From assembly GCA_943704415.1 (NCBI GenBank), contig CALSCO010000263.1, forward strand, positions 1 through 46,033: a stretch of 46,033 nucleotides of DNA. The letters are read 5' to 3'. Shown here piece by piece: positions 2,476 through 45,986 of this stretch (position 1 is its first letter; each line of letters begins with the position of its first letter). Below the pieces are notes generated by a model. It saw only the letters and a program-made list of their open reading frames with translations. It did no database searches and was not told the origin of the DNA. The DNA is from Parvularia atlantis (lineage: Eukaryota; Opisthokonta; Rotosphaerida). A program made the position numbers and the translations under genes.

Positions 2476-4514
2476 TCACAGCTCGAGCAGGCTGTTCGCG
2501 CGCCGGTGGCGGATGATGTCGGCGATGGTGATCATCTTAAAGCCGTGGTGCCGAGAGAACGCGCGCAGGTAGTCGCGGCGCGCCATGGTGCCGTCGTCGA
2601 GTGCGATCTCACACAGCACGCCGCACGGGTACACCTTGGCCATCTTGCAAAGGTCTTCGCCGGCGCAACGGGGTCAGCCTCGTGCACCCCCCCCTTGTAT
2701 CACCCGGAGAGCGCGCACCGATGGTCGCCTCGGTGTGCCCCATGCGCGTGAGCGTTCCACCGTTCGCGTATCGCAGCGGGAACATGTGGCCCGGACGTGC
2801 AAAGTCCTGCGCGCGCGTCAGCACGCGTGCGCGCGCGAGTGGTGACGCGACCATGCACCTGCGGCTTGACGTTCGGGTCGGTCACGGCGCGCGCGGTGGC
2901 GGCACGGTCGGCGGCCGAGATACCCGTCGTCGTGCCTGGCCAGTCACGCTCAGTCGCACACCAGGCCGCACGCACGCGCGCACGCACCGTGCTTGTAGTC
3001 GATCGAGACCGTGAACGCCGTCTGGAACGTCTCATCGTTGGCGGTGACCATGAGCGGCAGCTGGAGCTCCTCGAGCCGACCCGGCAAAACCGACATGCAG
3101 ATCAGCCCGCTGCAGAAGCGGATCATGAACGCCATCTTCTCGGCCGTCATGAACTCAGCCGCGATGATTAGATCGCCCTCGTTCTCGCGGTCCTCATTGT
3201 CCACAACGACCACAAACTTGCCCGCGGCTGCGACTCCCGTCACACAACATGCCTGCAGCAGGCCGCGTGCGCGCACCGATGTCGGCGAGCGCGTCCTCGA
3301 CCGTGTCAAACTCGCAGCTGTCCGACCGCTCAGCCTCCTGCGGCACGTCTGCGGGCGCCTTGCTGGAGCTCTTGTGTGCGCTGCACGCCTGCTATCAGCG
3401 ACACATAGGAGAGTCCGGCGCATGAGCGCGCACGCACCCAGCCTCAGCACCGTGCGTGTGCGTCGCCGGGTTGACCGTGAACACGCGCTCGGCGAGCGCC
3501 TGCTTCGTGTACTCGAGCCGGCCGTTCACAAGGACACCGCACACGTCGCTGTCCTGCACGCGCATGAGCACGTCGCGCAGGTCTGGTGTGCGTGCGGGCC
3601 AGGTCAGCAACAGAGCAAGGAGCGCTGCGCAGACGCACCGTAGTCGTCGAGCGCGGCCCACGTGTCGTCGGCGTAGATCACGACCAGGTCGCCTGGCCTC
3701 GTCGCACTCGCGGCAGCGAGCGCGGCCTGTTCATCAAGCCGTCTGGAGTGTGCACACGCGGTCAGCCTCGGGGTGCGCACGAACGGGTGTGCACATACCC
3801 GGCCACCAGCAGCGCCCGCAGCTCGTCCCACACGCTCGGCGAGGCCTTGGCCGTGCTGCCGGTGCCAATCAGGCCTGCTGCTGTTGCTGCTGTGCCGTGC
3901 GCGTGATCAGCAACGCCCACGCAGCAGCAGCAGCGCGCACCGGCAGCCGCGCGATCGGCGCGCAAGCACACGACGTCGGCCGGGCGCTTGTTGACGGCGC
4001 GCACGACGACTGCAGGGACCACGCCCGCCACCTCGCCCTCCACCTCGGCCGCCGACAGCGCGGGCGCATCCACGTGCACCTCCGTCACGCCGGCGCGCAG
4101 GCTCGCGGCTAGCAGCGCGCGCAGTGCGACGGCCGACGCGCGGTGCTGCACGAGGCGGCGCCGTTCGTCAGCGGGCACGCACGGGACGCGCCGTGCGCCG
4201 CGCACCGCGTCGTGCTGGCCGTGGCCATTGACCACGCCCGCCGCGGCCGTCGGCGCCGACGCGCCGCCCGACGACGGCGGCACGTGCAGGTACGCGTTGC
4301 GCAGCGCCGGGAGGACGACGAGGCGCCCCTCGCCGCGCACCTCGAGCAGCGGCGCGCCCTCGTCACGACCGTCGCGGCCGTCAGCAGCAGCACGCCACAC
4401 GACGTGCCCGTCCGCGCCCACGACGACGGCGCCGCGCACGAGCCCCGCGCCCGCCGGGAAGAAGAAGACGTCGCGCAGCAGCAGCGCGGCGGCCATGTGG
4501 CGCTCGGCGGTCAT
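2476..4514 (-). CDS. RIB3: Probable fusion: degenerate amidohydrolase + 3,4-dihydroxy-2-butanone-4-phosphate synthase
   Basis: The C-terminal half is DHBP synthase, which turns ribulose 5-phosphate into the four-carbon unit of riboflavin. Exons give [12 protein letters not shown], then [18 protein letters not shown] (acid-rich active site), [30 protein letters not shown], and the end [15 protein letters not shown] with stop at 2476. No ATG precedes the DHBP part: its first exon has an in-frame stop just upstream, so it must be spliced to earlier exons. Those exons, in matching phase, run from the ATG at 4514 and look like an amidohydrolase: [28 protein letters not shown], a shortened middle, [34 protein letters not shown], and [11 protein letters not shown]. 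The usual metal ligands are missing (NAYLH for NAHxH, GTGS for GTDS), and the barrel is about half the normal length. Two separate genes remain possible. DHBP synthase identity is near certain; the fusion is inferred from splice phase. Confidence 0.75.
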
Positions 4515-4591
4515 GCAAAGGTCACGTGGGGTGACGTCACGCGTTTCATCCACCCTGGTTGCCGAGGACGCGCCCGCCGTGGAAGGGCCGC

Positions 4592-4599
4592 GAACGTTC
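4592..4599. promoter_or_regulatory. Heat-shock element in divergent promoter
   Basis: GAACGTTC is a perfect GAAnnTTC dyad. Another GAA lies 10 bp upstream (4582-4584), in correct 5-bp phasing with one missing unit between. It sits about 40 bp upstream of a TATA box, in the 244-bp gap between a small heat-shock gene and the divergently transcribed riboflavin gene. This is the place and form expected of a heat-shock factor site. Confidence 0.6.
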
Positions 4600-4640
4600 C
4601 CGCGGGTCACGGCGGCGTCAGCCGCGCGCGGCGGGCGCCG

Positions 4641-4648
4641 TATAAGAG
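4641..4648 (+). promoter_or_regulatory. TATA box of the plus-strand Hsp20 gene
   Basis: TATAAGAG in an otherwise GC-rich stretch, 118 nt upstream of the Hsp20 ATG and downstream of the heat-shock element. Inducible heat-shock promoters commonly keep a TATA box. Confidence 0.6.
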
Positions 4649-4758
4649 CGCGGCCCTGTGGCGTGCGGCCGGCCCGATTCCTCCTCGCGTCCGCGAAGCA
4701 CACACCGAGACGAACCGCAGCCACGCCGCCCATCCTCGAAGGCACCGGCACCGCTAGC

Positions 4759-5348
4759 ATGGCCCTCGCCCCGCGCCGCCTCGCGTCGCTCTTTGACGAC
4801 TTTTTCGGTGTGTCGCCGTGCGCGCGTCGTGCTCAGTTGGGGGGTGGCGTGCTGACACCCGGTGGCGTTCGACCGCGAGCACGCGCAGAGCCCCGCATGT
4901 TTTCGCTCATGCCGCGCGCCGACAACGACGTCGCGAGCGCGATGATGCAGTGGCGCCCCTCGTGCGACGTGCGCGAGACCGATAACGCGTACCTCATCCA
5001 CGCCGAGATCCCCGGCGCCCAGAAGGAGGACGTCAAGGTCGAGCTCGAGGGCCAGCGCCTCAAGATCTCGGGCTCGGTCAAGGAGGAGAAGAAGACCGAG
5101 AACGACCGCTACCACTCGCAGGAGCGCTCCTTCGGCAAGTTCATGCGCGTCTTCTCGCTGCCGCAGAACGCGCAGGTGGACCAGATCTCGGCCAAGCACG
5201 AGAACGGCGTGCTCGAGCTGACCATCCCGAAGCAGCCGATGGAGGTGCGTCTGACCGTGGTTTGCTTTGGCGGCTGACCCGCGTGCACGGCTCGCGTGCA
5301 TCGCCGCGCCCGCAGCAGACCAAGGCGCGCCAGATCAAGGTCCAGTGA
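4759..5348 (+). CDS. Small heat-shock protein (Hsp20), plant/bacterial class-I-like
   Basis: ATP-independent chaperone that holds unfolding proteins. It starts at the ATG at 4759 (MALAPRRLASLFDDFF). An intron of about 80 nt (near 4810-4889) joins DDFF to EPRMFSLMPRADNDV. The core is complete: CDVRETDNAYLIHAEIPGA, KEDVKVELEGQRLKISG, ERSFGKFMRVFSLP, and ENGVLELTIPK (the A-x-x-x-n-G-v-L signature). A second intron of about 73 nt at 5245 leads to the last exon, QTKARQIKVQ then stop. The I-K-V ending resembles the I-x-I/V motif that docks sHsp subunits into oligomers. It is compact, unlike the Q/G-tailed sHsp 2.8 kb away. A heat-shock element and TATA box lie upstream. Confidence 0.93.
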
Positions 5349-14132: not shown

Positions 14133-16035
14133 TCACTCGTCGACGTGCTCCTCCGGCCCATGCACGTCACCGTCGCTCTCCTCGCTCTCCTTCCCGTCCT
14201 CGTCCTCCTGTTCGCTCTCGTCGTCGTTGCCGAGCACCGCGCCCTCGAACAGGTACCGGTTCGGCGGCACAAAGGTGAACGGCTCTTCCTCAGCTTCGCT
14301 GCTCGCCGTCGCCTCTTTGCCCGACCAGGCTGTGTCTGCCGGCGGCGGCAGCACCCTCGCCTCGCACGGCTGCCGTGCGGGCTGCAGCGGCGATCCGATC
14401 AGCCGCTCGAGCTTGTCCTGCCACCCGAGACGCTAGTGCACGCACGCATGGACGCTCAGCAATTGCACCAGCAAAAGCGCGCAGACGCACGCGGCACAGC
14501 TCGCCGATGACCACGTCGCAGTCGCCGAGCAGCTCGACGTCAAACTGCATGTGCCGGATGGGCTCGCGGTTGATCAGCACCTGCGGCACGTCCGGCGAAA
14601 GGTAGCCTGGACCGCGGGCTGCCTGTGAGCGGCCGCGGCACATCGAGCGAGCACGCGCACCCATGATACCCGCGACGGGCTCGACCTTGAGCGACGAGCC
14701 GATGACAACGAGCAGGTCGACCTGGTCGCGGTCCTCCATCAGCAGGCGCTCAAAGTCGTCCGACTGCGCGCGTGTGAGCTGGGTGCGGACAGGCCGTGCA
14801 CGCACGCGCACTAGCTTCTGGCCGAAGAAGACGATGTCCGGCTTGAGCACGTACGGCGGCTTGCGCTCGGCGTCATCGTCCTCGTCATCCTCGCCGTCCT
14901 CGTCACCCGCTTTGCGCTTCCGCCGCACGTACGCCTCACGCACTTGCTGCTCGCGCGCCGTGCACAGCGGGCAGTACGGCACGCGCTGCGCCATCACGTC
15001 GGCGCGGATGGCCTCGCCGTCGACCTTGTGCTGGCAGCGCATGCACGTCGCGGTGCTGAACGAGCCTGCGTCGCGCTGTCAGGACAGCGGAAAGCGACGA
15101 GAGCGCACGTCACCGTGGCACTGGAACACGCGGGTCACACCGGCCACGTTCTCGAGCGTGTCGATGTTCTGCGTGTAGTTGCGCAGCAGCTGCCCGCGCT
15201 CCTCAAGCAGGCGGATGAAGTAGTGGCTGGGCGACGGGCGGAAGTTGCCCGGGAACAGCTCCTTGGCGAACGAGAAGAAGGGCTCGGGCTTGTCCCTGCG
15301 GTGCGTGCGTCAGCGCGACGAATGTGGTGATGGCGGCGCACAGAAAGTAGACGATGTCAAACATGTCCTCAGGCTGCTCCATGCGATACTCGTCACGCAG
15401 CCGCCGGTAGATGCCGTTGCGCGAGCGGAAGTCAGGAATGCCGCAGCTGTGGTGGCGCGCGCGCATCAGTGAGTCGTGCTCGTCGGCAGCGTCGGCAGCG
15501 ACGGCAGCGCACCTCACCGACACGCCCGCGCCCGTCAAGACCATGATGCGGCGGCTCCTGCGCGCGGTCAGCACCTAGGCGGCTGTGCACACGGCCAACG
15601 CACCGCCGCAGCAGGTCGAGCACGTCGTCGAGCGTGTTGACGTGTGCGAGCTTGGATCGGACGCGCAGGTACGACACGGCGACGCGGTGAAAGTGCACCA
15701 GCAGCCTCTGCGCACGGCGCCGTCAGCACGCAGACAGCAGCATCGGGCACTAGAGAACGCACGTCCGGCAGCGCGAGACCCGCCAGCTCCGCCTGCGGCA
15801 CGCCGAGCACGAGCGCGATCAGCCGGTCGACGGCCATCGGCGGCTCGCGCAGCAGCAGCTCGGCCATCCACCGCCGCCGCCCGACCTCGCTCAGCCGCAT
15901 CTGGTGCGCCGCAATCTCCTCGTCCGTGAGCAGCTCGCTCGCTCCGCCCCGCGCCGCCGTCGCGCCCAGCACCAGCGCGCGCAGCCGCGCCTCGGCCGTG
16001 TCCAGAACAACGGTGACAGAGCCAGCGGCCGTCAT
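14133..16035 (-). CDS. Sirtuin, SIRT1/Sir2-type NAD-dependent protein deacetylase
   Basis: Removes acetyl groups from lysines using NAD, expected in the nucleus. Start at ATG 16035 (MTAAGSVTVVLDTAEARL), with about eight introns. After an N-terminal helical region, NTLDDVLDLLRRC matches the segment just before the SIRT1 core. The core is complete: IMVLTGAGVSV, CGIPDFRSRNGIYRRL, PEDMFDIVYFL, FFSFAKELFPGNFRPS, and RNYTQNIDTLENVAGV. After the catalytic His (FQCHG), zinc ligands appear in two pairs (CMRC and CPLC). LKPDIVFFGQKL, VIGSSLKVEPVAGI and QVLINREPI follow. A highly acidic tail (ESEQEDEDGKESEESDGD) ends at 14133. SIRT1 and yeast Hst/Sir2 share this class-I pattern. Its start codon is 20 nt from that of the divergent GT92 gene. 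Confidence 0.93.
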
Positions 16036-16055: not shown

Positions 16056-17811
16056 ATGCGCCGCATGGCCGTGGCCGTCGTCGCGATCGCCGCGCTCGTC
16101 GTGCTGCTGCGCGCGGCGACGGCGGCGCCCGTCGACGTGGACGACGGTGGCCGCGGGACGATTGCGAGACGGTGGCCGATCGCGTGCGTCACGGGCGTGC
16201 GCGCGCCGCGGCTGGCGGACGAGCCGCACGTGGCCGTGTACGAGAACGAGTGGGCGGCGCGGCCGTGGGACGAGTGCCACCACCGCCTCGTGCGCATGCC
16301 CGGTGGCGGGCTCGACAAGACAGACGCGCACGTCGACGTGGCGCACGAGTGGCTGCTGCTGCAGGGCGCCATCCGCTCCGAGTCGCCCTCGGCCCAGGCG
16401 CGCACGCTCGTCCCGTTCTGGTGCGTGTTTGACACGGGCGAGACGACCTCGTCCACGCCGCGCGAGGCGATCGACCACCGCGACCACAAGCACTCGTCCG
16501 TGCGCACCTGCCCCGTGCCGCGGCGCGCACAGCGCGTGCTCGACGACCTGCAGCCGGTGCACGTGCGCGTCGGTGCGCGACGAGCCGATCATGTGCGCTG
16601 CCTCGCCGTAGTCTCACGCGTGGCGCACGCGGCAGTCGCGCCCTTCTCGCGCATCCCCGAGGACGTACCGGGGGCACGGCTCAACGTGGGCGCCGAGCCC
16701 GAGGCTGGCTGGATACGCATCTGCCCGCACACGCACCGCTGTTCGCCCGAGCGCCGCGCCGAGCTGCGCCTGCCGCACAACCTGCCCGTGTTCTTCTTGC
16801 CGCGCGAGCCGCTACCCGCGCGCCTCTTTGGTGACGGCCGAGTGCCGGCGACGATGCGCCCGCGGCTGCGACGCCGCGAGCTGGCCGCGATGACGCCCGC
16901 CCAGCTGCAGGGCCTCGGGCGCCCGTACGTGTACAAGCTCGTCGGCTGCACAATGACCGAGTCGACCGCCGCCCTCACCGACTGGATCGAGTACCACCAC
17001 CTCGTCGGCTTCGACCGCCTCGTCGTGTATGACCACCACCGGGGCCAGCCGGGCAGCACGCCGCCACTGCTGGACGCGCTGCGGCCGCAGATCGAGCGCG
17101 GCTACGTCGAGCACGCACCTTGGCGCTACTTTGGCCCGAACGACGGTGAGCCGTTCGCGGCTGACGACTGGATTCTGCAGCAGGTGCGCAATCCCGCGCA
17201 GCACCGTGCGCTTTGTCGAACACCTGGCGCAGGTGCTTTCCAACAACCACTGCATTGTGCGCTACGCGGGGCTGGCCAAGTGGATTGGCATGTTTGACCG
17301 CGACGAGTACATGCACGCGCGTGGCAACTACAGCTCCGTGCCCGAGGTGCTGGACGACGTCGAGCACACGCAGCCGCCCCATTTCGTTGCGGCGCACGCC
17401 TACTCCTGGTGCGCGCACACAGCCATGCTGCGCGCACGCGGGCTCACTCCAGCGGCAGGTTCTTCCGCGAGAAGGAGGGGTCGCGCGCGCGGCTGTTCAA
17501 TGGTGCGCTGGCCGGCGCCGCGTTCGCTGAAGCTGACCGACGCCTCAGCCCGCAACACCCTCGCCGACACGCAGCCCTTCCGCGATGGGCGGCAGAAGAC
17601 GTTCCTCCTCGCCGACCGCGCGCTGTACCATGCCGTGCACCAGCTCACGCAGCCGCACGTCACATGCTCGGCATCGCTCGACGGCTTCACCGTCATGCGC
17701 ATGGCGCACATGAAGCCGGGCTGGAGCGACTCGACATGGAAGCCGGACCTGACCTTCACGTATTACGAGCCCGAGCTGCTGCGGCGCCTCGCACGGCTGA
17801 AAACGCAATGA
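16056..17811 (+). CDS. Glycosyltransferase family 92 (DUF23) protein
   Basis: Likely galactosyl/glycosyl transferase in the secretory pathway. Start at ATG 16056 (MRRMAVAVVAIAALVVLL), which supplies a signal peptide or anchor of about 20 hydrophobic residues. A spacer rich in Cys/His and charged residues follows. The GT92 catalytic region is YVYKLVGCTMTESTAALTDW, then IEYHHLVGFDRLVVYDH, and after one intron NNHCIVRYAGLAKWIGMFD-RDEYM. The D-x-D-E-y string is the metal/nucleotide-sugar site of the family. Then HFVAAHAYSWC, a shorter spliced region (17430-17590) with uncertain joins, and TCSASLDGFTVMRMAHMKPG. It ends LRRLARLKTQ with stop at 17809-17811. GT92 proteins add galactose to N-glycan or other acceptors in animals and plants; the acceptor here is unknown. 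Confidence 0.82.
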
Positions 17812-30591: not shown

Positions 30592-30754
30592 ATGGCGAAT
30601 CCGTTCGCTGTCCTCACGATCGAGGACGACGACGAGCCCGAGGCGCCTGTGGCAGCCCCGGCGCCCGCGGCGGCGGCCAAGGGCGGCGCGGCGGTCAAGA
30701 AGGACTCGCCCAAGCAGCCGGCGGCGGCGCAGCAGGGCTCGGGCCAGGGCCAAG

Positions 30755-30785
<31 letters not shown>

Positions 30786-32358
30786 CAGCAGCGGCCCGCG
30801 TGAGCCCCGTGGCGACCGCCAGCCGCGCGGCGACCGTCCGCCGCGTGCCGATCGGCCCCCGCGTGAGGGCGGCGGTGCGTGACGCGCGCTCTCTCCCCTC
30901 TCGGGTCACGTGCGGAGGGGGACGCAGGGTGCGGGGGCGCGGGGGCGCGGGGGCGTACACGCCTGATGAGACACATTCAACATTCTCGTACTAAGTTTCA
31001 GAGCGGGTTGTGGCGCATCTTTCCGCCCGTCCCGCAGTGCTCGAGACCTTGAATCACTCCACTCTGACCATCCGCCCGCCCCCCTCCGCCCTCTGCCCTG
31101 CACACCCCCCTCGCGCTGCTGCTGCTGCTGCTGCTGCTGCTGCATTGCCCGTCTCGGCGCATCGGCTCACTCGAGCGCACACCGCACCGCACCCGATCGC
31201 GATGCGCGCAAAAGATCGCCCACCGCGCACCGAGCCGCGCGAGCCCCGTGGCGACCGCCCGCCGCGTGGTGACCGTCCGCCGCGCTACGCGCGTGCGCAG
31301 GGCGAGCAGCCGGCCGGTGCGTTGCCGCGAGCGCACTGGCGCTGCGTCTGTGGCCTGACCGATCGCCGCAGCCGGTGGCGAGGGCGAGGGCGCTGCCGAG
31401 GTGCAGGACTACAACCCGAGCGAGGCGAGCTTCGACCGCCGCCCGTACGAGGGCTCGACCCGCGGCCGCTACGGCGGGCGCGGCCGTGGCGATGGCCGCA
31501 AGCGCGAGTTTGACCGCCGCGGCGCGCCGCACCACTCCGACGGCGCCAAGCACGAGACGCACGGCAAGGGCAACTGGGGCGCTGAGGGTGCTGCCGACGC
31601 GAGTGCGGAGCCCGCGGCGACCGAGGGTGCGTTTGGCGCTCGCTGCTGCCGCGGGCGTCTGACGCGAGGCGCACCTGGCGCAGACGGCGCTGCCGCCGCC
31701 ACCGGCACCGAGGAGGGCGCGCCGGCCGCCGACGCGACGCCCGCTGCGGCGCCCGCGGAGCGCCGCGAGGACCCTGATGACAACGTGCGCCGCCGTGACG
31801 CGGCCGCTTGCGCCGGCTGACGCGGTTGGGTGGCGCAGCTCAAGACGCTCGACGAGTGGAAGAAGCTCCAGAGCAAGCCCTCGATCGAGCTGCCCCCGGC
31901 GCGCAAGGCGAACGAGGGTGCCAACGAGGAGGAGTGGAAGGAGGCCGTCGTGCTCGACAAGACGGCCGAGGAGTTTTACTCCGGCAAGGTGCGCGGCACG
32001 CGATGCGCGCTGGTGCCAACTGCTGACACACGAGCCGCGCTCGCAGGGCGTCACCAAGGCGTCCAAGACCAAGGAGCCCAAGCCCGTCGTGCGTATCGAG
32101 GTGGAGATGAAGCGCTACCAGCCCGAGCGCTTCGACCGCGGCGGCGACCGCGGCGGCGACCGCGGCGGCGACCGCGGTGGCCGTGGTGGCGGCCGTGGCG
32201 GCGCGCCTCGCGGTGGCGGCCGGGGAGGCCGTGGCGGAGGCCGCGGCGGCTACTCGTCGGACCGCCCGCCGCGCGCGGACGCGCCCGCCAAGGGGCCCAA
32301 CGCGCCCGCCCTCAAGCTCGACGAGGCCAACTTCCCTGCGCTCGGCGCGGCGAAGTGA
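30592..32358 (+). CDS. SERBP1: SERBP1/Stm1 (HABP4/PAI-RBP1) family ribosome-binding protein
   Basis: RGG-rich, disordered protein of the family that occupies the mRNA channel of idle 80S ribosomes. Start at ATG 30592 (MANPFAVLTIEDDDEPEAPV), the typical N-F-F-x-L-x-x-D-D-E start. Exon 1 has a (CAG)9 Gln run and GDR/PPR repeats and ends at 30874. Intron 1 (30875 to about 31211) is much longer than any other here and carries a snoRNA. Later exons give YNPSEASFDRRPYEGSTRGR, GRKREFDRRGAPHHSDGAKH, and GKGNWGAEG, the HABP4/SERBP1 signature. LKTLDEWKKLQSKPSIELPP and KPVVRIEVEMKRYQPERFDR follow. A C-terminal RGG block leads to APALKLDEANFPALGAAK with TGA at 32356-32358, where NFPAL-G is also family-typical. 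Five or so introns. Confidence 0.88.
30757..30786 (+). repeat. (CAG)9-CGC tract in SERBP1 exon 1
   Basis: Nine CAG codons (poly-Gln) followed by CGC. It is the exact reverse complement of the tract at 31113-31142 in intron 1, giving a 30-bp inverted repeat. Confidence 0.9.
30964..31067 (+). ncRNA. Box C/D snoRNA in SERBP1 intron 1 (snR40/SNORD32-like)
   Basis: Box C is TGATGA at 30964-30969 and box D is CTGA at 31064-31067, 104 nt apart, inside the long first intron of SERBP1. Directly 5' of box D is AATCACTCCAC (31052-31062), complementary over 11 nt to the conserved 18S rRNA string GTGGAGTGATT, with G-U pairs extending it at both sides. By the D+5 rule, C31059 pairs with the second G of GGUGG. 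From memory of rRNA maps, that nucleotide is Gm1271 of yeast and Gm1328 of human, methylated under guidance of snR40 and SNORD32. G-rich sequence before box C and CCGCCC after box D could form an outer stem. I find no certain C'/D' pair or second guide. Location in an intron of a ribosome-linked gene is typical of host genes. Confidence 0.78.
31113..31142 (+). repeat. GCG-(CTG)9 tract in SERBP1 intron 1
   Basis: Nine CTG units preceded by GCG, the exact reverse complement of the exon-1 tract at 30757-30786. In the pre-mRNA the two could pair over 30 bp, enclosing the 5' splice site at 30875 and the snoRNA. Confidence 0.9.
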
Positions 32359-32655
32359 GGGTCCGAGTGCCGACCGCGCGCCCGCACGAGCGTTTTCAGC
32401 AGCATGCCTCTCCTCTCCCAGGGGTGTGTGCGGGCACGGTGCCCGTTCCAAAACTCGTTGTCTTTGCCATGTTCCATGGTCTTGAAAGGAAACAGGTGAA
32501 AGAAAACAGGTGGGACGATGCTGAGGGGGGGTCGGGGGTGAGGGCTGTGCGCGGGCCGAGTGCCGTGGTCGTGGGCAGCCGGCTGTTTGCGGTGTGCAAC
32601 CGAAGAGGATGCTCTAATGTTACTGCGGTGCGGGGTGATCGTGCTATTTTTTGCG
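32359..32655. other. Convergent 3' intergenic region
   Basis: About 300 nt between the stops of SERBP1 (plus) and the RasGAP gene (minus). It contains AT-richer patches (AAAGGAAACAGGTGAAAG near 32488, and TATTTTTT near 32645) that probably serve 3'-end formation on the two strands. No gene was seen. Confidence 0.4.
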
Positions 32656-36433: not shown

Positions 36434-39177
36434 TCACCGCCCGAACCGCAGCACCGGCTGGTCGTCCAAGTCGTCCGCGTCGAGCCGCCCGTCATCATCG
36501 TCGTCTGAGCCGAGCGCGCCTGCGGCCGTCAGCGCGACCACGTCCTCGTCGTGGCTGTCGCCCATCTTGCCGAGCTCGATCGCGCCCGCGTTGTCGCCGC
36601 GGCTGCACTCGCCCGGCGGCAGCGGTACCTTGACAAACTGGCGCTCGATCGAGTTCGGGTAGAAGAACGACAGCGCAAAGATCACCGCGCCGAGCACGGC
36701 GACAAAAAGCCTGCGAGCATGTGAGCGCGCGACGTACGCGCGCGGGCGACGCACCACACGATGAACGAGTGAAACGGGAACTGCGCCGAGCCCGTGAACG
36801 ACCACATGAGCCCGCCCATGGCCGGGCCGAACGCGCGGACGCCTGATTGTGCGCGCGCGACCGTGAGCCACGCTAGCGCCAGACCCGTGCACACGCACTC
36901 GAGGCCCACGTCTGGCCGATGCCGTTGGCGAGGCCCAGCTTCTCGCGCGGGACCGAGTTGTTGACGAAGACCATGACGGGCGTGAACGAGTTCTGCGGCG
37001 CGCGCATTAGGCCGAGCACTCACGTTGTCGTCGACCACCGCACCAGGCCGATAATGCCGCGCAGGCACACGTTGGCGATCAGCACGACCCAGAGCATTGT
37101 CCCACCCAGGCCGGTGTAGACGTAGTGCGTGATCGGGTAGATGATGCACATGGGCACGCTCAGCAGCACAGAGATTCGGAACAGGCGCTGTCGCGCGGCC
37201 GGCCGTCAGTCGCGGCACACGGCGAGATCGCACGCACCATCAGGCCAACGCGCTTCGAGATCGCCTTGAAGAAGGCGAGGTTGTATACGATCGACACGCC
37301 GCCGAGCACGCCCAGCGCGATGCCAATCTCGGACGAGGTGAAGCCGAGCCCCTGGTTGTCGACGCTCTCGCGGCTGTGCGCACGCGGCGTTAACCACTGC
37401 AGTCAGTAGACGCACGCGCGCGTTGCCGCACCAGTACAGCGGGAAGATCTCGTCGATCCAGATGTAGAACAGCGCGATAAGCCCATACATCATGGTACAG
37501 TACCAGACAAGGCGCATCGAATGCGGCACGTAGCTCTCCGGCGGCGGGTCGAGCCCGATCTGAGAGCTGCGCGTGCGTGTCCACCAGCTCGGCTGAGGTC
37601 GCCGACGGGCGCACAGACCCGCCCGCACCTCGAGCTCTTGATGAGGATGCCCGACGAGCCCAGCATCGGGAACGGCGCGCGCTGGCGCACGCTCGGCGTC
37701 GGCGGCGACGAGGGGCTGGTCGACGGCGTGCGGTCGTCGGCGTCTGCGACCACTCTGTGGGGTCAGCAACGGCGTGACGAGTCGCTTGCAGGGTGCACCG
37801 TTGAGCGTCGTCGTCGACACGTCGTTGATGAACGAGTCCTCGACCGCCCCGGCCTCGAGCGCCTCCTCCTCGTCCTCGGCCAGCCGCGCGTGCTCGCCCT
37901 CGCCGTGCGCCTCGTCGTTGCCGACCTGGCTGTACCGCTCGGCGGGACGCGCGGCGAGATGCGTGTGGCTCAGGAGCGACGCGAGTGACGCGAGCGAGCC
38001 CCTTGCGCGCTTGTGCCAGGCCTCGCGCGGCAGGGCGCCGTCCTCCTCCTGCGTTGCGCCGCGTCAGACCTTGCAGCAGCCCGGCGCACACGAACGGCGC
38101 TCACCGCAACGGGCACGTGCTTCGCTGCCATGTCCGCAATCACCTCGTCGGCCTCTTTCATGATAAACCAGATGACAACGAAGCCGCACACGCTTACCGC
38201 GCCCGCAAACAGGCACGGCAGCAGGTATGGGACTGCGAGCGGCGCGTCAGCACGGCCAAAACGGGGCCACGAGACGCACACTGTCCGAAGAGGCCGTCGC
38301 GCGGGAATGCGTCCGGATACTGCACGCCGTGCGAGCGATCAGCGCGGGCTGTGGGGATGGCCGGCCGCGTGCCTTGTCGGCGGGCTCTGACAGGAAGCCG
38401 CCAATCATCGGCGCGAGGATCGAGCCGATGGCCCATGCGCCGCTGAGCAGCGCCATCGCGTGCGCCGAGTTGCTCGAGTCGGTCACGCGCCCTGCCCGCC
38501 GCGCATGCGCTTTCGTCAGCCTCACGCGGCACACGTGCGCGCAAGCTGCGCTCGGACCGAGGTAGCTGCGAGCCGCGCGTTAGCTACCCACAGCGGCGAC
38601 GGTGCGCGATCATGCACCTCTTGACGACCGATAGATTGCCGTTGAAGACGCCTGTGATCGGCGGGCGCGTCAGCCGCACGGCGCGCGGCGTCGACGGCAC
38701 GCGGCGCACCGGTCGCTATCCGCAGGGCGACGGCCATGGGCACGCTCTGGCTGAAGCCAAACGCGAACATGCACGCGGCTGTGGCACCGACGCTGAAGAG
38801 CACGCACGGGCGCGCGCCCACGCGGTCGGCGAGGCGGCCCCAGACGAATGAGCTGCCGACCCTGCGCCGCCGCGCCGTGAGCGCGACCCATCCACCCCAC
38901 GCAGCACACGACGAGGCGCACTGGCCCAGCGCGAACGAGGCCGCGACCAGGCCCGAGTACAGCCCGACCATCTCCTCGGGGATGCCCTCGAAGTCGGCGA
39001 CCATGAACGCGACAAAGGGCAGCAGCACGGTCATGCTGCACGCACACGAGCACGTCAGCATCGACTGCGCAGCACGCAGGCAGCACGCAACTGGAACGCC
39101 TCCGACAGCTGCACAAACAGCACGACGACCATCGGCGCGCGGGGCAGCGGCGTCTCGACGACGACAGCGACCGACAT
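36434..39177 (-). CDS. Major facilitator superfamily transporter, ZIF1/DHA1-like
   Basis: Twelve-helix carrier, probably exporting small organic molecules or metal chelates. Start at ATG 39177 (MSVAVVVETPLPRAPMVVVL), spliced to TVLLPFVAFMVADFEG. The first half has IPEEMVGLYSGLVAASFALG, SSFVWGRLADRVGARPCVLF (the G-x-L-a-D-r-x-G-R signature between helices 2 and 3), FGFSQSVPMAVALRIATGA, FNGNLSVVKE, and SGAWAIGSILAPMIGGFLSE, then YLLPCLFAGAVSVCGFVVIW. A long acidic/Ser-rich central loop follows. The second half has MRLVWYCTMMYGLIALFYIW, FTSSEIGIALGVLGGVSIVY, VMVFVNNSVPREKLGLANGI, and FGPAMGGLMWSF. The C-terminus is acidic (GSDDDDDGRLDADDLDDQ) and ends PVLRFGR at 36434. FNGN and GP-x-x-GG blocks fit plant ZIF1 and fungal relatives. 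About ten introns. Confidence 0.85.
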
Positions 39178-39225
39178 CCGAGTCGGCGCCGCCGCCGCAC
39201 CTTATCGATTGTCGAGCTGTCACGC
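39178..39225. promoter_or_regulatory. 48-nt divergent interval between MFS and SHFL-like genes
   Basis: The two start codons are 48 nt apart. The interval contains ATCGAT and GTCGAG, again a TCGA-centred pattern, and no TATA box. The SHFL-like start depends on the first splice described there. Confidence 0.4.
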
Positions 39226-40992
39226 ATGTCGCCGCCACGTGGTGCGCCCGCCTTGCCAACTGCCGGAACGCGGCGTCTGAGCGGCGTCGCCAGCGCGTTT
39301 CGTGTCGGTACGGTGCACGCTCGCGCCCGCGCACGTCTCGACGTTCGTGGAAGGGACGGACCTGGCGCGCGCCGTGTGCAGTGAGTGCGGCGGGCGCCTG
39401 CTGCCGCCGATGCGCGATAGCGAGGTGCCGCCAGGGCGCGCGTTCTTCGCGTGCAGCGCGTGCGAGGCGCAGTGGCGCCGCGAGGAGTGGCGCGCGGGGG
39501 TGGCCAATCAGTGCGGCTGGGCCGAGTGCGCCACGCGCCCGCTCTGCACGCCGTACCTGGTGCGCGCGTGCGCCCTGTGCGATGCGCGTTGTTGATCTGT
39601 CCTGCGCAGGTGCTGCCAGCGAGATCGAGCTCGCCTGGGACACGATCTCGTTCACGGTCGCGAGCGATGTCGTCACCGATGCGCATCCGCCGTCACTCAT
39701 CAGCTGGATGAGCGCCGCGCCGGTCGCGCTGCCTCCCGCTGCTACCATGACCGCCGTGCCTGCCGTGCAGGCCACGCGGCCCGCTGTGCAAGCTGTGCCC
39801 ACAGTGCAGCCCGCCGCTGCTCAGCCGCCCAAGCCGGCCGCCCAGCTCATGCAGCCCGCCGTGCAAGCTGTGCCTGCCCCTGCTCAGCCGCCCAAGCCTT
39901 CCGCACTCGCCGCTACCGTGCCGCAGCCGCCCAAGCCGATCACGCCCCCAGCTCAGCCCGCGCCCCCGACGCAGCCCAAGCCAGCGCAGCCGCTCAAGCC
40001 AGCCGCACCAGCCGCACCGCAGCCAATGCCCTCAGCTCCACGAGCGCAGGTTAAGCCGTACAGCCTGCCGACGACCGCGGCCATCTCCGCGCTGGACAAA
40101 AAGCAGCGCATCGCCTGCGCCTTCCTCTGCGGGCACTGCAACCGCTACTGGATGCAGTACGTTATGCCGCACAAGCTCGTCTCGCGCTGCTTCAGGTGCC
40201 ATCAGTCGTACAAGAGTCTCAAGCCCTCGGAGGAGCCGAGCGGCGTGGGCTTCTTCATGTGCCAGTTGGTCAACGTGGACCTTCGGAAGTGCGACAGCAG
40301 CAGCACAGAGACGTGCCGCCGCCAATGGACCTCGGCGCCCGCCGCGCGCAACATCAGCCAGAAGTGCTACGGCCGCGCGGGTCTTTGCAAGGCACCGATT
40401 TTGCCGGCCGTTGTGCGTGCCGCACATCGCTTGTGTTGCTGTTCGCCCTCTGACGGACAGCACCCAGGTGATCCCGTACTTCCACCTGCAAGACAAGACC
40501 ATTCAGACGCGCGGCCGGAAGCCGACCAAGAACAAGCACGAGTGCGAGGAGTGCGAGGGCCTCGACCGCTGCCCGCTCGTGCACCGCAAGTGCGCCGTCT
40601 CGCAGCCGCACGACTCGACCGGGTCGACGATCTCGCTGGGCCCGAACGAGCTCAGCATGTTTCTCAACAACGACACTGCGGCCAAGTACGCCGAGCGTGC
40701 TAAACTTCACAAGTACCACGATGTCGACCTGCCGTTGCTGGACGACATGCGCATCCCGCGCGACTTTGCCGACGGCACCTTTGCAGAAGTTGACGCGACG
40801 ACGGACGACACGGATGACGACATCGACGACTCAGACTTTGACCGCCCGCAGTCGCCCGACGCGCGCCTGTCGGACGGCGACTCGGACGACGACCCGGACG
40901 ACGACGACGACGGCCCGCTGCAGCCGCTGCCGAGCCGCACCAACCCGGGCGCGCGGCTGCCGCTGCGCCGCTCAGGCCACTGGCAACGATAG
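39226..40992 (+). CDS. Shiftless (SHFL/C19orf66)-like zinc-ribbon protein with duplicated ribbon and Pro-rich linker
   Basis: The first exon is MSPPR from ATG 39226. A 52-nt intron joins it in phase to ARFVSVRCTL; that second exon alone has only a GTG. The N-terminal part has zinc-type pairs: CSECGGRLLPP, then FFACSACEAQWRREEWRAGV and NQCGWAECATRPLC. A long Pro/Ala/Gln linker (QPPKP repeats) follows. The next block, LCGHCNRYWMQYVMPHKLVS then RCFRCHQSYKSL, parallels the SHFL pattern C-x-x-C-x-x-x-W...KPVSRCRRC. GVGFFMCQLVN, CRRQWTSAPAARNISQKCYG, and after one intron VIPYFHLQDKT parallel its second ribbon. CEECEGLDRCPLVHRKCAVS and HDSTGSTISLG parallel the SHFL end (HPRS...H-S-S-G-S-T). It finishes with a strongly acidic tail. 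In vertebrates SHFL binds ribosomes and RNA and suppresses programmed frameshifting. The same role here is only inference. Confidence 0.6.
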
Positions 40993-41044: not shown

Positions 41045-42666
41045 TCACGTCTCGGCCTGCCGCAGCAGCGCTTGCAGCTCGCCCTTGTTGCCGAGGATTT
41101 TGAGCATTTCGACGATGAAGGGGAAGTAGTTGTGCTTGCGGCGGATGTTGTCCAGCTGCGGCGCGGTGTCAGCGTGCGCGCCGGCGGTCGGGCAGACGCA
41201 CCTGCTGGCGCTTCTGTAGGTCGTCCTCGGCCGCTATCTGCTGCTGCAGCTGCGCGCGCGTCTGGCCGAGCCGCTCGAGTGCGACCACCGCGGTTTGCTG
41301 CGGCAGCGGCACGTGCAGGCTCATCTGCGCAAGCACAGGCCCTGCGCTCGCGTTCGCCGCCTCGGGCCCCTGGCGCCGCGATCACGTCAGGTCGGAGCGG
41401 TGCGCACACACGCAGGGGAGGCGCACCTGCTCGTCGAGCTGCTTCAGGAACGTCGTGAGCACGGTGATCGCATGCTCGATGCGCGCCAGCTCTGCACACG
41501 GGCGCTCAGGGGTGCGATCCCGCGCACGCCGCACACCGCGCACCCTCGCTGAGCGCTGCCCGCTGCTCCTTGACCACGGCCATGAGGTTGAAGCCGATCT
41601 CCTTCTTCGAATAACTGCGCGGGCGGGCGCGTCGGCGCGTGTCGCACAGAGCGCCGCCGCGCGCGCCTGCTGATGCGCTCGCGGATCGCCGGCCGCGCCA
41701 CCTCGAGCCAGTTCTGCAGCGTGCAGGGCCCTGGCGCGCGCCTGCTTGTCAGACAGGCCACAGGCGCGCCGAGTACGCGCCTATCTTGACAGGGCCCGCG
41801 CTCAGCCCGTCGAGCTCGTACAGCGTGCCGTTGACGGGCACGTACGACACGAAGTGGTACGTCTCGCTCTCGACCCTGGCGCCCACTGTGCTCTGGCGCG
41901 AGGGTAGGTCTATCGCGAACGAGTCGAGGCTCGGCCTGCCCCGCGCACACGGTTAGAGCGCGCACGCGCCCGGCGATCGCACACACCGGGCAAAGCTGTT
42001 GTGTGCGCGGTGCAGCTTCTCCACGTTGCCTATGCTGAGCCCTTTCATCTGCTCGCACGCGCACATCAGGCGCACGCGTGCAGGCGTCGAGCAGGAAACG
42101 CGCCTTGGGCGTGAAGTCGCGCGTGAACTGCCTGAAGTACGCGAGGTCGTCGCCGATGTCGATCTCGGGCCGGTTAAGCACGATGCTGAGCACGGCCTGC
42201 GTCGCGCACGCGTTGTTGATGACTGCGCGCGGCGCACGTTGAGCGAGCGGCATGAACGGGCGCGGCCGACGGCGGCCCACTCTGCTGCGCAAAGTACACG
42301 TCCGGGCTGTCGGCCGGGTCGGACGTGCGCTCGTGGTCGTCGCCGTCACGCCACTTGAACAGGAAGATGAGGCCGTACACTGGCCTGGGCCGATGCAGCC
42401 ACGCCGATCAGCACCCCGTCCGCGACGCGCAGCACACCACACCGCAGCGGATCGACGCGCGTCAGCAGCGGGCTGTCGAGGTCGTACAGCTCCTCGACCT
42501 CAACCGCGCGCACGCCAATCTCGCGCAGCAGCTGCGAGAAGACGGCTGCGGTGCGCAGCGATCGATTGAGCGCGCATGAGGGGGCGCGGGCCGCACGGCG
42601 CGCACGGCGCGCACCCGGGTCCGACTCGATCAGGCACCACAAGGACGCATCCTTGTGCAGCGCCAT
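41045..42666 (-). CDS. UCHL5: UCHL5/UCH37 ubiquitin C-terminal hydrolase
   Basis: Cysteine protease that trims ubiquitin chains on the 26S proteasome. Start at ATG 42666 ([18 protein letters not shown]), typical for the family. Exons give [46 protein letters not shown], and [20 protein letters not shown] (catalytic Cys in NNACATQA). [20 protein letters not shown], then [20 protein letters not shown] and DG follow, where the catalytic His and Asp are kept. The tail has [20 protein letters not shown] and ends [30 protein letters not shown], matching the UCHL5 C-terminal domain that binds Rpn13. Stop at 41045. About nine introns. The start codon lies inside the last, decayed unit of a 63-bp promoter repeat. 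Confidence 0.93.
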
Positions 42667-42918: not shown

Positions 42919-44458
42919 TCACGGCGCACCGGCCTCAATCTCCGCCGCCTTGGCCGAGAACGACGCCAGCGCGATCTCGACCGTTTCGTCCCCGGCCGGC
43001 GTCTTGGTCACGACGATGTCGTCGGCCGAGGCCGGGGTCGACGTCGACATGAGCACGCCGGTCGAGCGCGTGCGCCGCACACCCTCGGCCGCGCCCGTCT
43101 GCGTCGTCCGGTCCGAGCTGAGCACGTTGAGGCCAAACTGGCGTCGCAGCAGGCGCGGGACCAGCCGAGGCTTGAACAGCATTGTGATCGTGCCCGGCAG
43201 GCCCAGGACCATGTTCATCAGCAGCGCGATGTAGAGGTACCAGCTGCGCTCAGTCAGGCGGTCAGGCACAAGCGCGATCGCAAGGACAGTACGCGGCGCG
43301 CACCGTTGCCCGAGCGTGATGATGCAGAGGAAGATGCCCGTGACAAAGACGATGAGCGCGGCGATGATGAGCGCGACGAAGCGCAGGCGGTAGTAGATGT
43401 CGAGCAGGTGCGAAGCGTTGGACTTACTCGTGGCCAGGCTCAGGTCGACCTCGCTTATGTCGCGCGCCTCGATGCCGTGCACGACAAAGCGGATCGACGT
43501 GCGCACGAGCCGCGACGAGAGGTAGACGGCGTAGAACACGAGGAGCAGGTTGACGTCGATGCCCGCGAGGATGATCGAGTAGCCCACGGTCATGTAGCCG
43601 TTCTGCGCGACCGGGTCTTGCACGGTGATCGCGGGCAGGACGAAGAGCACGGCGATGACGGCGAGGGAGATGAGCGCGAGCAGGACCGCGTCCGCGTGCA
43701 TGATCATGCGCTGCACGCGGCTGCTCACGGCCATCCGGCCCATGTCCTCGATCAGGCGCGCGTTGGACGCGACGACGATGTCGGTCAGGCGGATCAGGTG
43801 CTCGACGAGCGCGATGATCACGGTCATGCTCAGCAGCGTCGGTACGCAGCCCTGAGACGGGCGGTGAGCACAAGGGCGATGTGGAGCGCCAACTTGACTG
43901 ATGGCGCACCACCAGGTACAGCAGCACGAGGTCGACCGGGTCCTGCACCGACGCGTACGGGTACGCGAGCACGTACGAGAAGCCCATGACCATGCTGGCG
44001 AACGCGAGCACGTACGGCACAAACACCGTGAGCTGGCGGCGCGCGGCTCAGCGCACGCAAGGAAAAAAAAAAAAACAATAGACGGCGCACGGGGCTCTTG
44101 TCGGCGCGCAGCAGGAAGCGCGTCACGAACGCCTCGAGCAGAAACACGACGGACAGCGCTAGCATCAGTGCGACGAGCCCCACGAGCGTGTTCTGCGGCC
44201 GTGCGGGACGAGACGGCGTCGGCCGCGCGCGGCGACGGAAAAAAGAAGACGAAACGTCAACAAAACGCACCTGGTGCAGGCTGCACGGCGCGACGTTGAG
44301 CGGGAGGAACCAGTTGTCGTCTATTGTGCAGCACGTGCGCGCGGCACGGATCAGCCTGCGCAGCCAGCGGTGGTGCCGCGCCGCGCCGCAAACGCACCGC
44401 GCAGGCCTGGCCCGCACGGCGTCGCGCCCCAAGGCGGCAAGCCGTCCGCCGCCATCAT
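42919..44458 (-). CDS. Seven-transmembrane protein A, unknown family (tandem paralogue)
   Basis: Start at the double ATG at 44458 (MMAADGLPPWGATPCGPGLR), which matches protein B (MMEDLPPWGATPC). A first intron removes 44386-ish sequence in the same phase as in B and gives DDNWFLPLNVAPCSLHQ. Seven hydrophobic helices follow: TLVGLVALMLALSVVFLLEA; VPYVLAFASMVMGFSYVLAY; TLLSMTVIIALVEHLIRLTD; VLLALISLAVIAVLFVLPAI; GYSIILAGIDVNLLLVFYAV; FVALIIAALIVFVTGIFLCI; and WYLYIALLMNMVLGLPGTIT. RTSIRFVVHGIEARDISEVD lies between helices 5 and 6. The long cytosolic-type tail has FKPRLVPRLLRRQFGLN and ends AAEIEAGAP at 42919. I recognise no family. The topology fits a receptor or ion-handling protein. One intron carries a T13 run near its donor. 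Confidence 0.75.
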
Positions 44459-44494
44459 CGGATGTCGTTGCGGGGAATGAGACAATGCGTTTTA

Positions 44495-45986
44495 TCACGG
44501 CACAGCCTCGCTCGAGTCGGCACCGTCGTCCGCGCCGGCCTCGCTCGAGACGGCCCCGCCAGCCGCGCCGGCTGCGCCCATCGACGTGAGCTCGCCCGTC
44601 TCGATCGGCGCCTTGGTGAGCGACGTTGGGCTCGACGCGACGCCGTCGCCCGCGACGCCGCCCGAGAGCGAGCCCTGCGCTGCGCTAGACGCGTGGATGC
44701 CGAGACGAACGCGCAGGAAGTGCGGCACGAGCCGCGGCTTGAACAGCAGGATAAGCGCCGCCGGCAGCCCGAGCAAAAGGTTGAGCAGCAGCGCGATGTA
44801 CAAGTACCAGCTGCGCGCGCGTGCATACACACGGCGACGATCAGACGCGCCCGCGCAGCAGGCCGCGCATGCGTACCGCTGCCCAAGGATGATGATCGCC
44901 ACAAAGATGCCCGTGACGCCCAGCACGAGCGCGCCCAGCAGGACGAGCAGGAAGCGCAGGCGAAAGTACATGTCCAGCAGGTTGGCGGCGTTGGGCTTGG
45001 TCGCGGCCAGCTTGAAGTCGAGCCGGCGGACGTGGCGTGCCTCGATGCCGTGCACGACGAAGCGAACCGAGGTGTACACGACCGTGTACGAGAGGTAGAT
45101 GGCGTACGTGACCGTGAGCACGTTCAGGTCGACGTCGATCAGGATGAGGATGTAGGCGATGGTGATGTACCGGTCCTCCTCCACCGGGTCAGCCAGCTTG
45201 ACCGAGGGCATGATGAACATGAACACGACGACGAGCACAAACATGACCGCGAGCATGACCAAGTTGAGCGTGGTGATACCGCGCTGGACGCGCGCGCCGC
45301 TGATCAGGCCCAGGTCCTCCGTCACCCGCCCGCTCCTGCTCAGCGCCACGTCTGACAGCTTGACGAGGTGTGCGACGGCGAAGGCGATGAGCAGCAGCAG
45401 CAGCAGCAGCGGGATGCACCCCTGGAGGGCGCACACGTGAGCGATGGCGCGCGCACGACCAGCACGAGCGGCGGCGCACCACAAGGTACAGCAGCACCAC
45501 GTCGACCGCACGCCGCACGCTCGCGCCGGGGAACGCGAGCATGTACGAGAAGCCGACGATGCACGTGCCGTAGATGAGCACACTCAGGAACCACACGGAG
45601 GTCTGCACGCCCGCTCAGTCATCCCGCCACAACAAGGGCGACGCACGGGGCTCTTGTCGGCGCGCAACACGAGCCGCGTCGCCAGCGACTCGACCAGGCA
45701 CACGGCCGACAGCGCCAGCAGCACGGCCAGCAGCACCGTCCGTGCCGTCTGCGCGCGGCCGGGGACTTCAGCGACGCGCCGCGCGCGTAACGGCCGCGGA
45801 GGGGGAACGCGCCTCGGGCAGGCTGCACGGCGCCACGTTGAGCGGCAGGAACCAGTCGTCGTCTGCGGCGCGCGGCACGAGCGTGGGGCGTCGGTGACGA
45901 CGACGGCAAGGGGGGCACGGGCGGCACGCACCGCGCAGGCCGGGCGCGCACGGCGTCGCGCCCCAAGGCGGCAGGTCTTCCATCAT
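44495..45986 (-). CDS. Seven-transmembrane protein B, unknown family (tandem paralogue)
   Basis: Start at the double ATG at 45986 (MMEDLPPWGATPCAPGLR). The first intron is in the same place and phase as in protein A and gives DDDWFLPLNVAPCSLPE. The same seven-helix plan follows: TVLLAVLLALSAVCLVESLA; VLIYGTCIVGFSYMLAF; PLLLLLLLIAFAVAHLVKLS; LVMLAVMFVLVVVFMFIMPS; ITIAYILILIDVDLNVLTVT; LLVLLGALVLGVTGIFVAII; and WYLYIALLLNLLLGLPAALI. RADKSP after helix 1, YTSVRFVVHGIEARHVRRLD and LFKPRLVPHFLRVRLG match protein A. The acidic/Ala tail ends GADDGADSSEAVP at 44495. Only 36 nt separate this stop from the ATG of protein A. Shared introns show that the pair arose by tandem duplication of an intron-bearing gene. 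Confidence 0.75.

Follow-up and report, generated by a model that had tools for sequence, protein, structure and literature searches.

A predicted two-guide box C/D snoRNA in the first intron of a SERBP1/Stm1-family gene of Parvularia atlantis

The first intron of a SERBP1/Stm1/HABP4-family gene on contig CALSCO010000263.1 of Parvularia atlantis very probably encodes a box C/D snoRNA that would guide 2'-O-methylation of the 18S rRNA G targeted by snR40 in yeast. The best reading of the sequence is a two-guide snoRNA that would be equivalent to snR40/SNORD32 in its action on 18S rRNA and would carry a different guide for LSU rRNA. Boxes C and D, their spacing, two rRNA complementarities in register, a predicted host gene and a long intron are all found in the window (the whole stretch of 46,033 nt that was analysed, positions 1 to 46,033 of the contig). 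An intronic box C/D snoRNA had been proposed in a preliminary description of this DNA, and the boxes, their spacing, the guides and the long intron support that proposal.

The host gene and its first intron

The features of the host gene are as follows.

30592..32359, + strand: host gene of the SERBP1/Stm1/HABP4 family; six exons, 400 amino acids, predicted start codon and splice sites
30592-30874, 31215-31316, 31372-31626, 31684-31784, 31839-31988 and 32047-32359, + strand: host exons in the spliced model
30875..31214, + strand: intron 1, snoRNA-bearing; 340 nt, GTGCGT...AAAAG
31166..31170, + strand: likely branch point CTCAC of intron 1, with the branch A placed 45 nt before the intron end

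The reading frame is open all along the six-exon model (30592-32359). The spliced protein matches PF04774 (HABP4_PAI-RBP1) at 36.9 bits against a cut-off of 21.8, and its PDB matches, eight distinct sequences at E 0.01, are SERBP1/PAI-RBP1 and HABP4-domain chains, with a SERBP1/PAI-RBP1 chain at E 1.3e-9; these matches bear out the assignment of the host to the SERBP1/Stm1 family in the preliminary description. Two unspliced or wrongly joined pieces of the host gene gave no Pfam match. Exon 6 contains RG-rich repeats corresponding to the RGG tail of the SERBP1/Stm1/HABP4 family.

The snoRNA-bearing intron had been called the only long one, which is right for this gene, since intron 1 has 340 nt and introns 2 to 5 have 55, 57, 54 and 58 nt, making intron 1 about six times longer than its neighbours. 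An alternative in-frame acceptor is present at 31174-31175 (the modelled one is at 31213-31214), with which intron 1 would end at 31175; the snoRNA stays intronic with either acceptor. When 30874 is joined directly to 31215, the GDRPPR repeats of the protein run on in frame. Each of introns 2 to 5 (31317-32046) starts with GTGCG, ends with CAG and contains CTGAC. This pentamer is probably the branch-point motif of the gene, because it occurs in all four of these introns with its branch-like A 13-21 nt before the intron end. For intron 1, CTCAC at 31166 was taken as the likely branch point, because its A lies 45 nt from the intron end compared with 147 nt for CTGAC. The same gene also carries a CAG repeat (poly-Gln) at 30757-30792 in exon 1 and a GCT/CTG repeat at 31115-31143 in intron 1, which are of opposite sense and thus able to pair in the pre-mRNA.

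Boxes and fold of the predicted snoRNA

Box C/D snoRNAs are stable RNAs bound by fibrillarin, Nop56, Nop58 and Snu13. The elements assigned to the candidate are listed in order of position.

30915..30951, + strand: external stem, 5' arm; G-rich/C-rich, pairs with 31075-31112
30964..31067, + strand: predicted snoRNA core from box C to box D, 104 nt
30964..30969, + strand: box C, TGATGA (exact UGAUGA), preceded by C instead of A/G
30984..30997, + strand: D' guide, a 14 nt perfect complement of AACUUAGUACGAGA in LSU helix 95 (sarcin-ricin stem)
30994, + strand: A, fifth base upstream of D', opposite the U of AAC-U-UAGUACGAGA (AAC-U-UAG), the predicted second methylation site
30999..31002, + strand: putative box D', CAGA (three of the four bases of CUGA), assigned from its place beside the guide
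31003..31035, + strand: hairpin GCGGG...CCCGC between D' and the 3' guide
31052..31063, + strand: D guide, 11 Watson-Crick pairs and one G-U pair with 18S GGUGGAGUGAUU
31059, + strand: C, fifth base upstream of D, opposite the 18S G that is the putative counterpart of yeast G1271/human Gm1328/Arabidopsis G1275
31064..31067, + strand: box D, CTGA (exact CUGA), reading CTGAC with the next C
31075..31112, + strand: external stem, 3' arm; pairs with 30915-30951

TGATGA and CTGA stand 94 nt apart as previously described, and the first base of the RUGAUGA consensus is C where A/G is expected, a weakness that the earlier reading had already pointed out. The mature snoRNA is probably a few nucleotides longer than the 104-nt core at both ends. 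Box D overlaps a CTGAC identical to the branch-point-like motif of introns 2 to 5, an overlap that the preliminary description did not mention. The best six-base match to TGATGA as a candidate C' has only three of six bases; in the parts of two reports covered, C' and D' are described as often degenerate in working snoRNAs (PMC2780460, PMC8053127). The core is poor in GC for its surroundings (51.9% against 68.8% for the window), only 198 of 45,929 windows of 104 nt being as low.

Structure prediction gave a mixed picture. The hairpin at 31003-31035 (z -1.58, with 15 of 200 shuffles as good) is not significant by itself. There is no stem directly beside boxes C and D; according to literature covered in part, a stable terminal stem marks expressed snoRNAs, and an unstable one together with mutated boxes marks pseudogenes. 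One flank of the core has a repeat rich in G (GGGCGCGG, 30927-30955) and the other a C-rich stretch (31068-31112), and the two could form a very long stem. An external stem as good as the observed one was found at 12, 2 and 2 of 2000 random places in the window, and in 536, 132 and 248 of 1000 shuffles of the same flanks. We therefore rejected the external stem as a sign of selection, its rarity at random places being due to flanks that are G-rich and then C-rich. For 30940-31090 the free fold has some stability (z -2.26, five of 200 shuffles as good) and differs from the open C/D form, since it pairs four of the six bases of box C, all four of D' and all four of D, together with six of the 14 bases of the D' guide and six of the 12 of the D guide.

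Complementarity to 18S rRNA at the snR40/SNORD32 site

The guides were compared with 2,006 nt of eukaryotic rRNA from public contigs, which are pieces rather than full genes, are not from the source species itself and exclude the LSU segments with the second snR40/SNORD32 sites of yeast and human. An 18S piece (L001) was recognised by Rfam as SSU_rRNA_eukarya at 534.5 bits and two further pieces (L002 and L123) as LSU_rRNA_eukarya; of the two GTDB contigs bearing the LSU string, L123 proved to be eukaryotic rDNA, whereas L124 had no Rfam rRNA match and was dropped. The LSU target was first picked from the yeast 25S sequence and then tested on the fetched rRNA pieces.

The string AATCACTCCAC at 31052-31062 occurs as an exact copy nowhere else in the window, and in none of 100 shuffles. 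The preliminary description had placed it directly 5' of box D; its position is right, but T31063 lies between the string and the box. This T forms the G-U pair of the D guide with 18S rRNA, and two more G-U pairs lie further out. Under the D+5 rule for the choice of methylation target (PMC8053127, covered in part), the nucleotide selected would be the partner of C31059, the second G after U in GGUGGAGUGAUU (GGUG-G-AGUGAUU in L001). The earlier statement that the rule picks the G of snR40 and SNORD32 is thus right, because five bases back from box D is C31059, opposite that G, and the assignment to the snR40/SNORD32 site is supported by both the D guide and its D+5 register.

We infer that this G is the same nucleotide as yeast G1271, human Gm1328 and Arabidopsis G1275. 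In the portions of the literature covered, yeast snR40 methylates 18S G1271 with U1269 modified nearby (PMC3938493), and AtsnoR21, U32 (Gm1328) and snR40 are tabulated as one 18S site, numbered 1269 for yeast in that table, with the U33/snR55 site at the U two bases before the snR40/U32 G (PMC3511168). Arabidopsis 18S rRNA has the corresponding pair U1273 (U33, SnoR34) and G1275 (SnoR21), the latter printed as C1275 in the running text (PMC8053127, covered in part). The U-N-G spacing of these known sites fits U3884 and G3886 of L001. The assignment presupposes GUGGAGUGAUU in the species' own 18S rRNA.

A second complementarity to the sarcin-ricin helix of LSU rRNA

The preliminary description missed a second guide, with a match at least as long as that to 18S rRNA. 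The D' guide is exactly complementary to AACTTAGTACGAGA in the LSU rRNA pieces L002 and L123; position 30983 contributes a G-U pair, and a single base separates the match from CAGA. The target comprises the 5' strand of the sarcin-ricin helix together with a portion of its loop; we take this helix to be helix 95 (H95) from the sarcin-ricin loop sequence, and the Rfam LSU consensus has the same stem there. The energies of the two guide-target duplexes are -20.1 and -21.2 kcal/mol.

We regard the D' guide as probably genuine. Methylation of the LSU U by this guide seems somewhat less likely than the pairing, because none has been found at the base of the same helix in Tetrahymena and none in plants. 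In the parts of the sources covered, Tetrahymena TtnuCD32 pairs with the base of this helix over 15 of 16 nt with no methylation at the predicted U3036 (PMC6315972); no Nm is listed between C2960 and G3292 of Arabidopsis 25S rRNA (PMC8053127); the plant sarcin-ricin loop is seemingly not 2'-O-methylated according to a review (PMC11542601); and no methylation in the sarcin-ricin region is shown for plants (PMC8351944). In literature covered in part, the helix is also reported to be more modified in human than in plants and yeast, and SNORD91 is predicted for 28S G4618 in H95 (PMC12288042, covered in part). A guide for this LSU U was not reported in the literature searched, as far as the listings and texts covered extend, and the covered parts of PMC5033589, PMC3596301, PMC6171561, PMC4855143 and PMC8522698 contributed nothing decisive.

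Chance expectation for the two guides

TGATGA and CTGA occur 40-160 nt apart nine times on the two strands of the window. At a distance of no more than 20 nt from box D, the longest exact rRNA complement measures 6 nt in three of these pairs, 7 nt in four, 8 nt in one and 11 nt in the candidate. When the boxes were fixed and the 94-nt interior was shuffled with its dinucleotides kept, a match of 11 nt or more at box D arose in 17 of 20,000 shuffles and a run of at least 14 anywhere in 12 of 20,000, and in a second run the D match arose in 39, the D' match in 34 and both together in none of 60,000, chance figures that have to be raised about 2.6-fold because the rRNA pieces were fetched with target-bearing patterns and full rRNA, at about 5.2 kb, exceeds them in length by that factor. 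One of 200 shuffled windows contained an 11-nt guide at a box D. On its two strands together the window has 44 exact matches to rRNA that are at least 11 nt long; position, strand and register therefore carry the weight, since bare 11-nt matches are common in a GC-rich window. Apart from the D' guide, no exact rRNA match on the + strand reaches 14 nt, and the one other in the window, which is GC-rich, lies on the opposite strand (44657-44670).

Alternative explanations

A narrower form of the two-guide reading, whose odds overlap with it, is that the D guide is functional and the 14-nt sarcin-ricin match is a chance or non-methylating contact. The poor C' candidate and the CAGA in place of CUGA agree with this reading, as do the lack of a methyl group at U3036 in Tetrahymena (PMC6315972) and the seemingly unmethylated plant helix (PMC8053127, PMC11542601), within the parts of those sources covered. 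We give it an appreciable though minority share, since so long a match is rare in the interior shuffles described above and stops one base before the D'-like box, and since degenerate C' and D' boxes are frequent in working snoRNAs in the parts of the reports already cited. A recent, unexpressed pseudogene with its guides kept would account for the poor C', for the missing stem at the boxes and for a free fold that pairs those boxes, unstable terminal stems and mutated boxes being typical of snoRNA pseudogenes in the literature covered in part. It is nevertheless unlikely, given boxes C and D that are exact UGAUGA and CUGA, two intact guides and an unusual intron length that has been kept.

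The remaining readings dispense with an RNA gene of this kind. A plain long intron, in which CTGAC is the branch point rather than part of a box D and the rRNA complementarity is random, draws on the occurrence of CTGAC in introns 2 to 5 with A 13-21 nt from their ends, on the abundance of CTGA (119 and 211 copies on the two strands of the window) and on the 44 rRNA matches. The A within box D, however, would stand 147 nt upstream of the acceptor, or 108 nt with the alternative acceptor, a better candidate for the branch point is CTCAC at 31166, and two independent guides in register, never found together in 60,000 shuffles, would be left unexplained; we consider this reading very improbable. 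Least probable of all is a mini-exon (e.g., from 31002, after TTTCAG), for which TACTAAGTTTCAG resembles a branch point and acceptor and GTGCTCG at 31037 is a possible donor, but introns 2 to 5 have CTGAC rather than CTAAC, the direct joint already continues the GDRPPR repeats in frame and both guides are again unaccounted for.

Proposed biogenesis and action

For the two-guide snoRNA, we infer transcription, processing, protein binding and methylation. Splicing and debranching would free intron 1, the external stem would hold boxes C and D together, the core snoRNP proteins would bind the boxes and the ends would be trimmed to the mature snoRNA. The free fold would have to give way to these proteins and the target. 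Pairing of the D guide with 18S rRNA would then let fibrillarin 2'-O-methylate the G equivalent to yeast G1271. The D' guide would bind LSU helix 95 on its 5' strand and may there serve either as a methylation guide for the U of AAC-U-UAGUACGAGA or as a folding chaperone.

Relation to known snoRNAs

The yeast snR40 target in 25S rRNA is U898. Human SNORD32 is intronic in RPL13A, and its counterpart here would have a SERBP1-like host. We know of no helix-95 guide in Arabidopsis SnoR21. As far as the cited texts were covered, the candidate shares box C/D class and the 18S G1271 target with yeast snR40 (RF01201, clan CL00054; PMC3938493, PMC3511168), whose second target is a single 25S site outside helix 95 (PMC3938493), whereas the second guide here fits helix 95. 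It likewise shares the 18S site, Gm1328, with human U32/SNORD32 (RF00133, clan CL00054; PMC3511168), and U32a is listed for 28S Am1511 (PMC3511168) rather than for the helix-95 site of the LSU guide. Arabidopsis SnoR21 acts on the same 18S site, G1275 or Gm1272 depending on the numbering (PMC8053127, PMC3511168), and SnoR21.1 lies in a polycistronic cluster (PMC8053127), in contrast to the intronic location here. For the second guide, a parallel in the parts of the literature covered is TtnuCD32, a C/D snoRNA with a long complementarity at the base of the sarcin-ricin stem, which differs in being a proposed U14 homologue that pairs across box D itself and has a processing role (PMC6315972); human and equine SNORD91 is also assigned, by prediction, to helix 95, but to 28S G4618 and not to this U (PMC12288042). 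Guide halves split and recombine in fungal snoRNAs (PMC2780460, covered in part), so a new LSU partner would not be without parallel.

Descent from a known family, which the preliminary description had implied by the word orthologue, is not supported by the Rfam searches. At the gathering threshold there was no snoRNA match in the window, and permissive searches gave none either, with limits of E 10 for 30860-31220 and E 5 for the whole window. The covariance check with the SNORD32/snR40 models that had been suggested thus returned no match even at E 10 in 30860-31220, a result for RF01201 and RF00133 that comes with no known distant member as a gauge of the models' sensitivity. Two weak Rfam matches in the intron (E 4.7-5.1), a piece of an lncRNA and a CUG-repeat match to an sRNA family, were rejected, and the tRNA scan found none.

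In IMG/VR, the C...AATCACTCCAC pattern matched at least 120 stretches. Among the 134 C...guide places in the loci listed, four were followed by a D box, being the same stretch in four loci, and we take these as chance rather than as relatives. Both guides together occurred in no IMG/VR sequence, and 17 IMG/VR pattern matches for the host protein included none that encodes a relative. These searches therefore lend no comparative support to the snoRNA.

Other features of the window and of the public contigs

The Pfam scan covered 20 pieces of the window, two of which were the host-gene pieces. Matches above cut-off were found in five other frames, and domains among them such as UPF0515 and Glyco_transf_92 give no clear indication of a fungal source.

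38658-40700, + strand: UPF0515
41444-42496, - strand: Peptidase_C12
16957-17808, + strand: Glyco_transf_92
14290-15078, - strand: SIR2
3907-5277, + strand: HSP20

Two neighbouring membrane-protein-like frames at 42919-45583 on the - strand, alike by eye and perhaps a tandem pair, had no Pfam match at E 0.001.

Among the contigs that supplied rRNA, two filed as viral in IMG/VR, L001 (about 3793-4543) and L002 (about 1-130), join eukaryotic 18S or LSU pieces to viral-looking sequence and are probably assembly chimeras. The third, L123, is filed under a Bacteroidetes MAG and has eukaryotic rDNA at both ends (the LSU end and the 18S start), which is contamination.

Significance

The preliminary description had linked rRNA modification to ribosome hibernation through the host. 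This link amounts to host location, because genes of the translation machinery are frequent and ordinary hosts of snoRNAs; the proposed connection is thus not supported. As far as the cited texts were covered, fungal snoRNA hosts include RPL7 and NOG2 (PMC8476143), 45 of 55 Neurospora C/D snoRNAs are intronic (PMC2780460) and snoRNAs move between hosts (PMC3511168). A snoRNA in a SERBP1/Stm1 intron was not reported in the literature searched, within the listings and texts covered.

We suggest only tentatively that a guide for a conserved 18S mark is combined with an unreported H95 guide inside the gene of an idle-ribosome factor of the SERBP1/Stm1 family, with methylation or a folding contact where translation factors bind. 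If so, the snoRNA and the SERBP1/Stm1-family protein would rise and fall with the same transcript. The D half would be of a known kind, because its function would be that of snR40/SNORD32, and it would extend to another lineage and host a methylation conserved in plant, human and yeast (PMC3511168, covered in part); since snoRNAs are mobile, a new host gene for the 18S guide is no surprise. The less ordinary and more interesting part of the snoRNA is its sarcin-ricin guide. A helix that is seemingly unmethylated in plants would thereby gain a ribose mark or be contacted by a chaperone, and the guide gives a prediction at the level of a single nucleotide, the LSU U.
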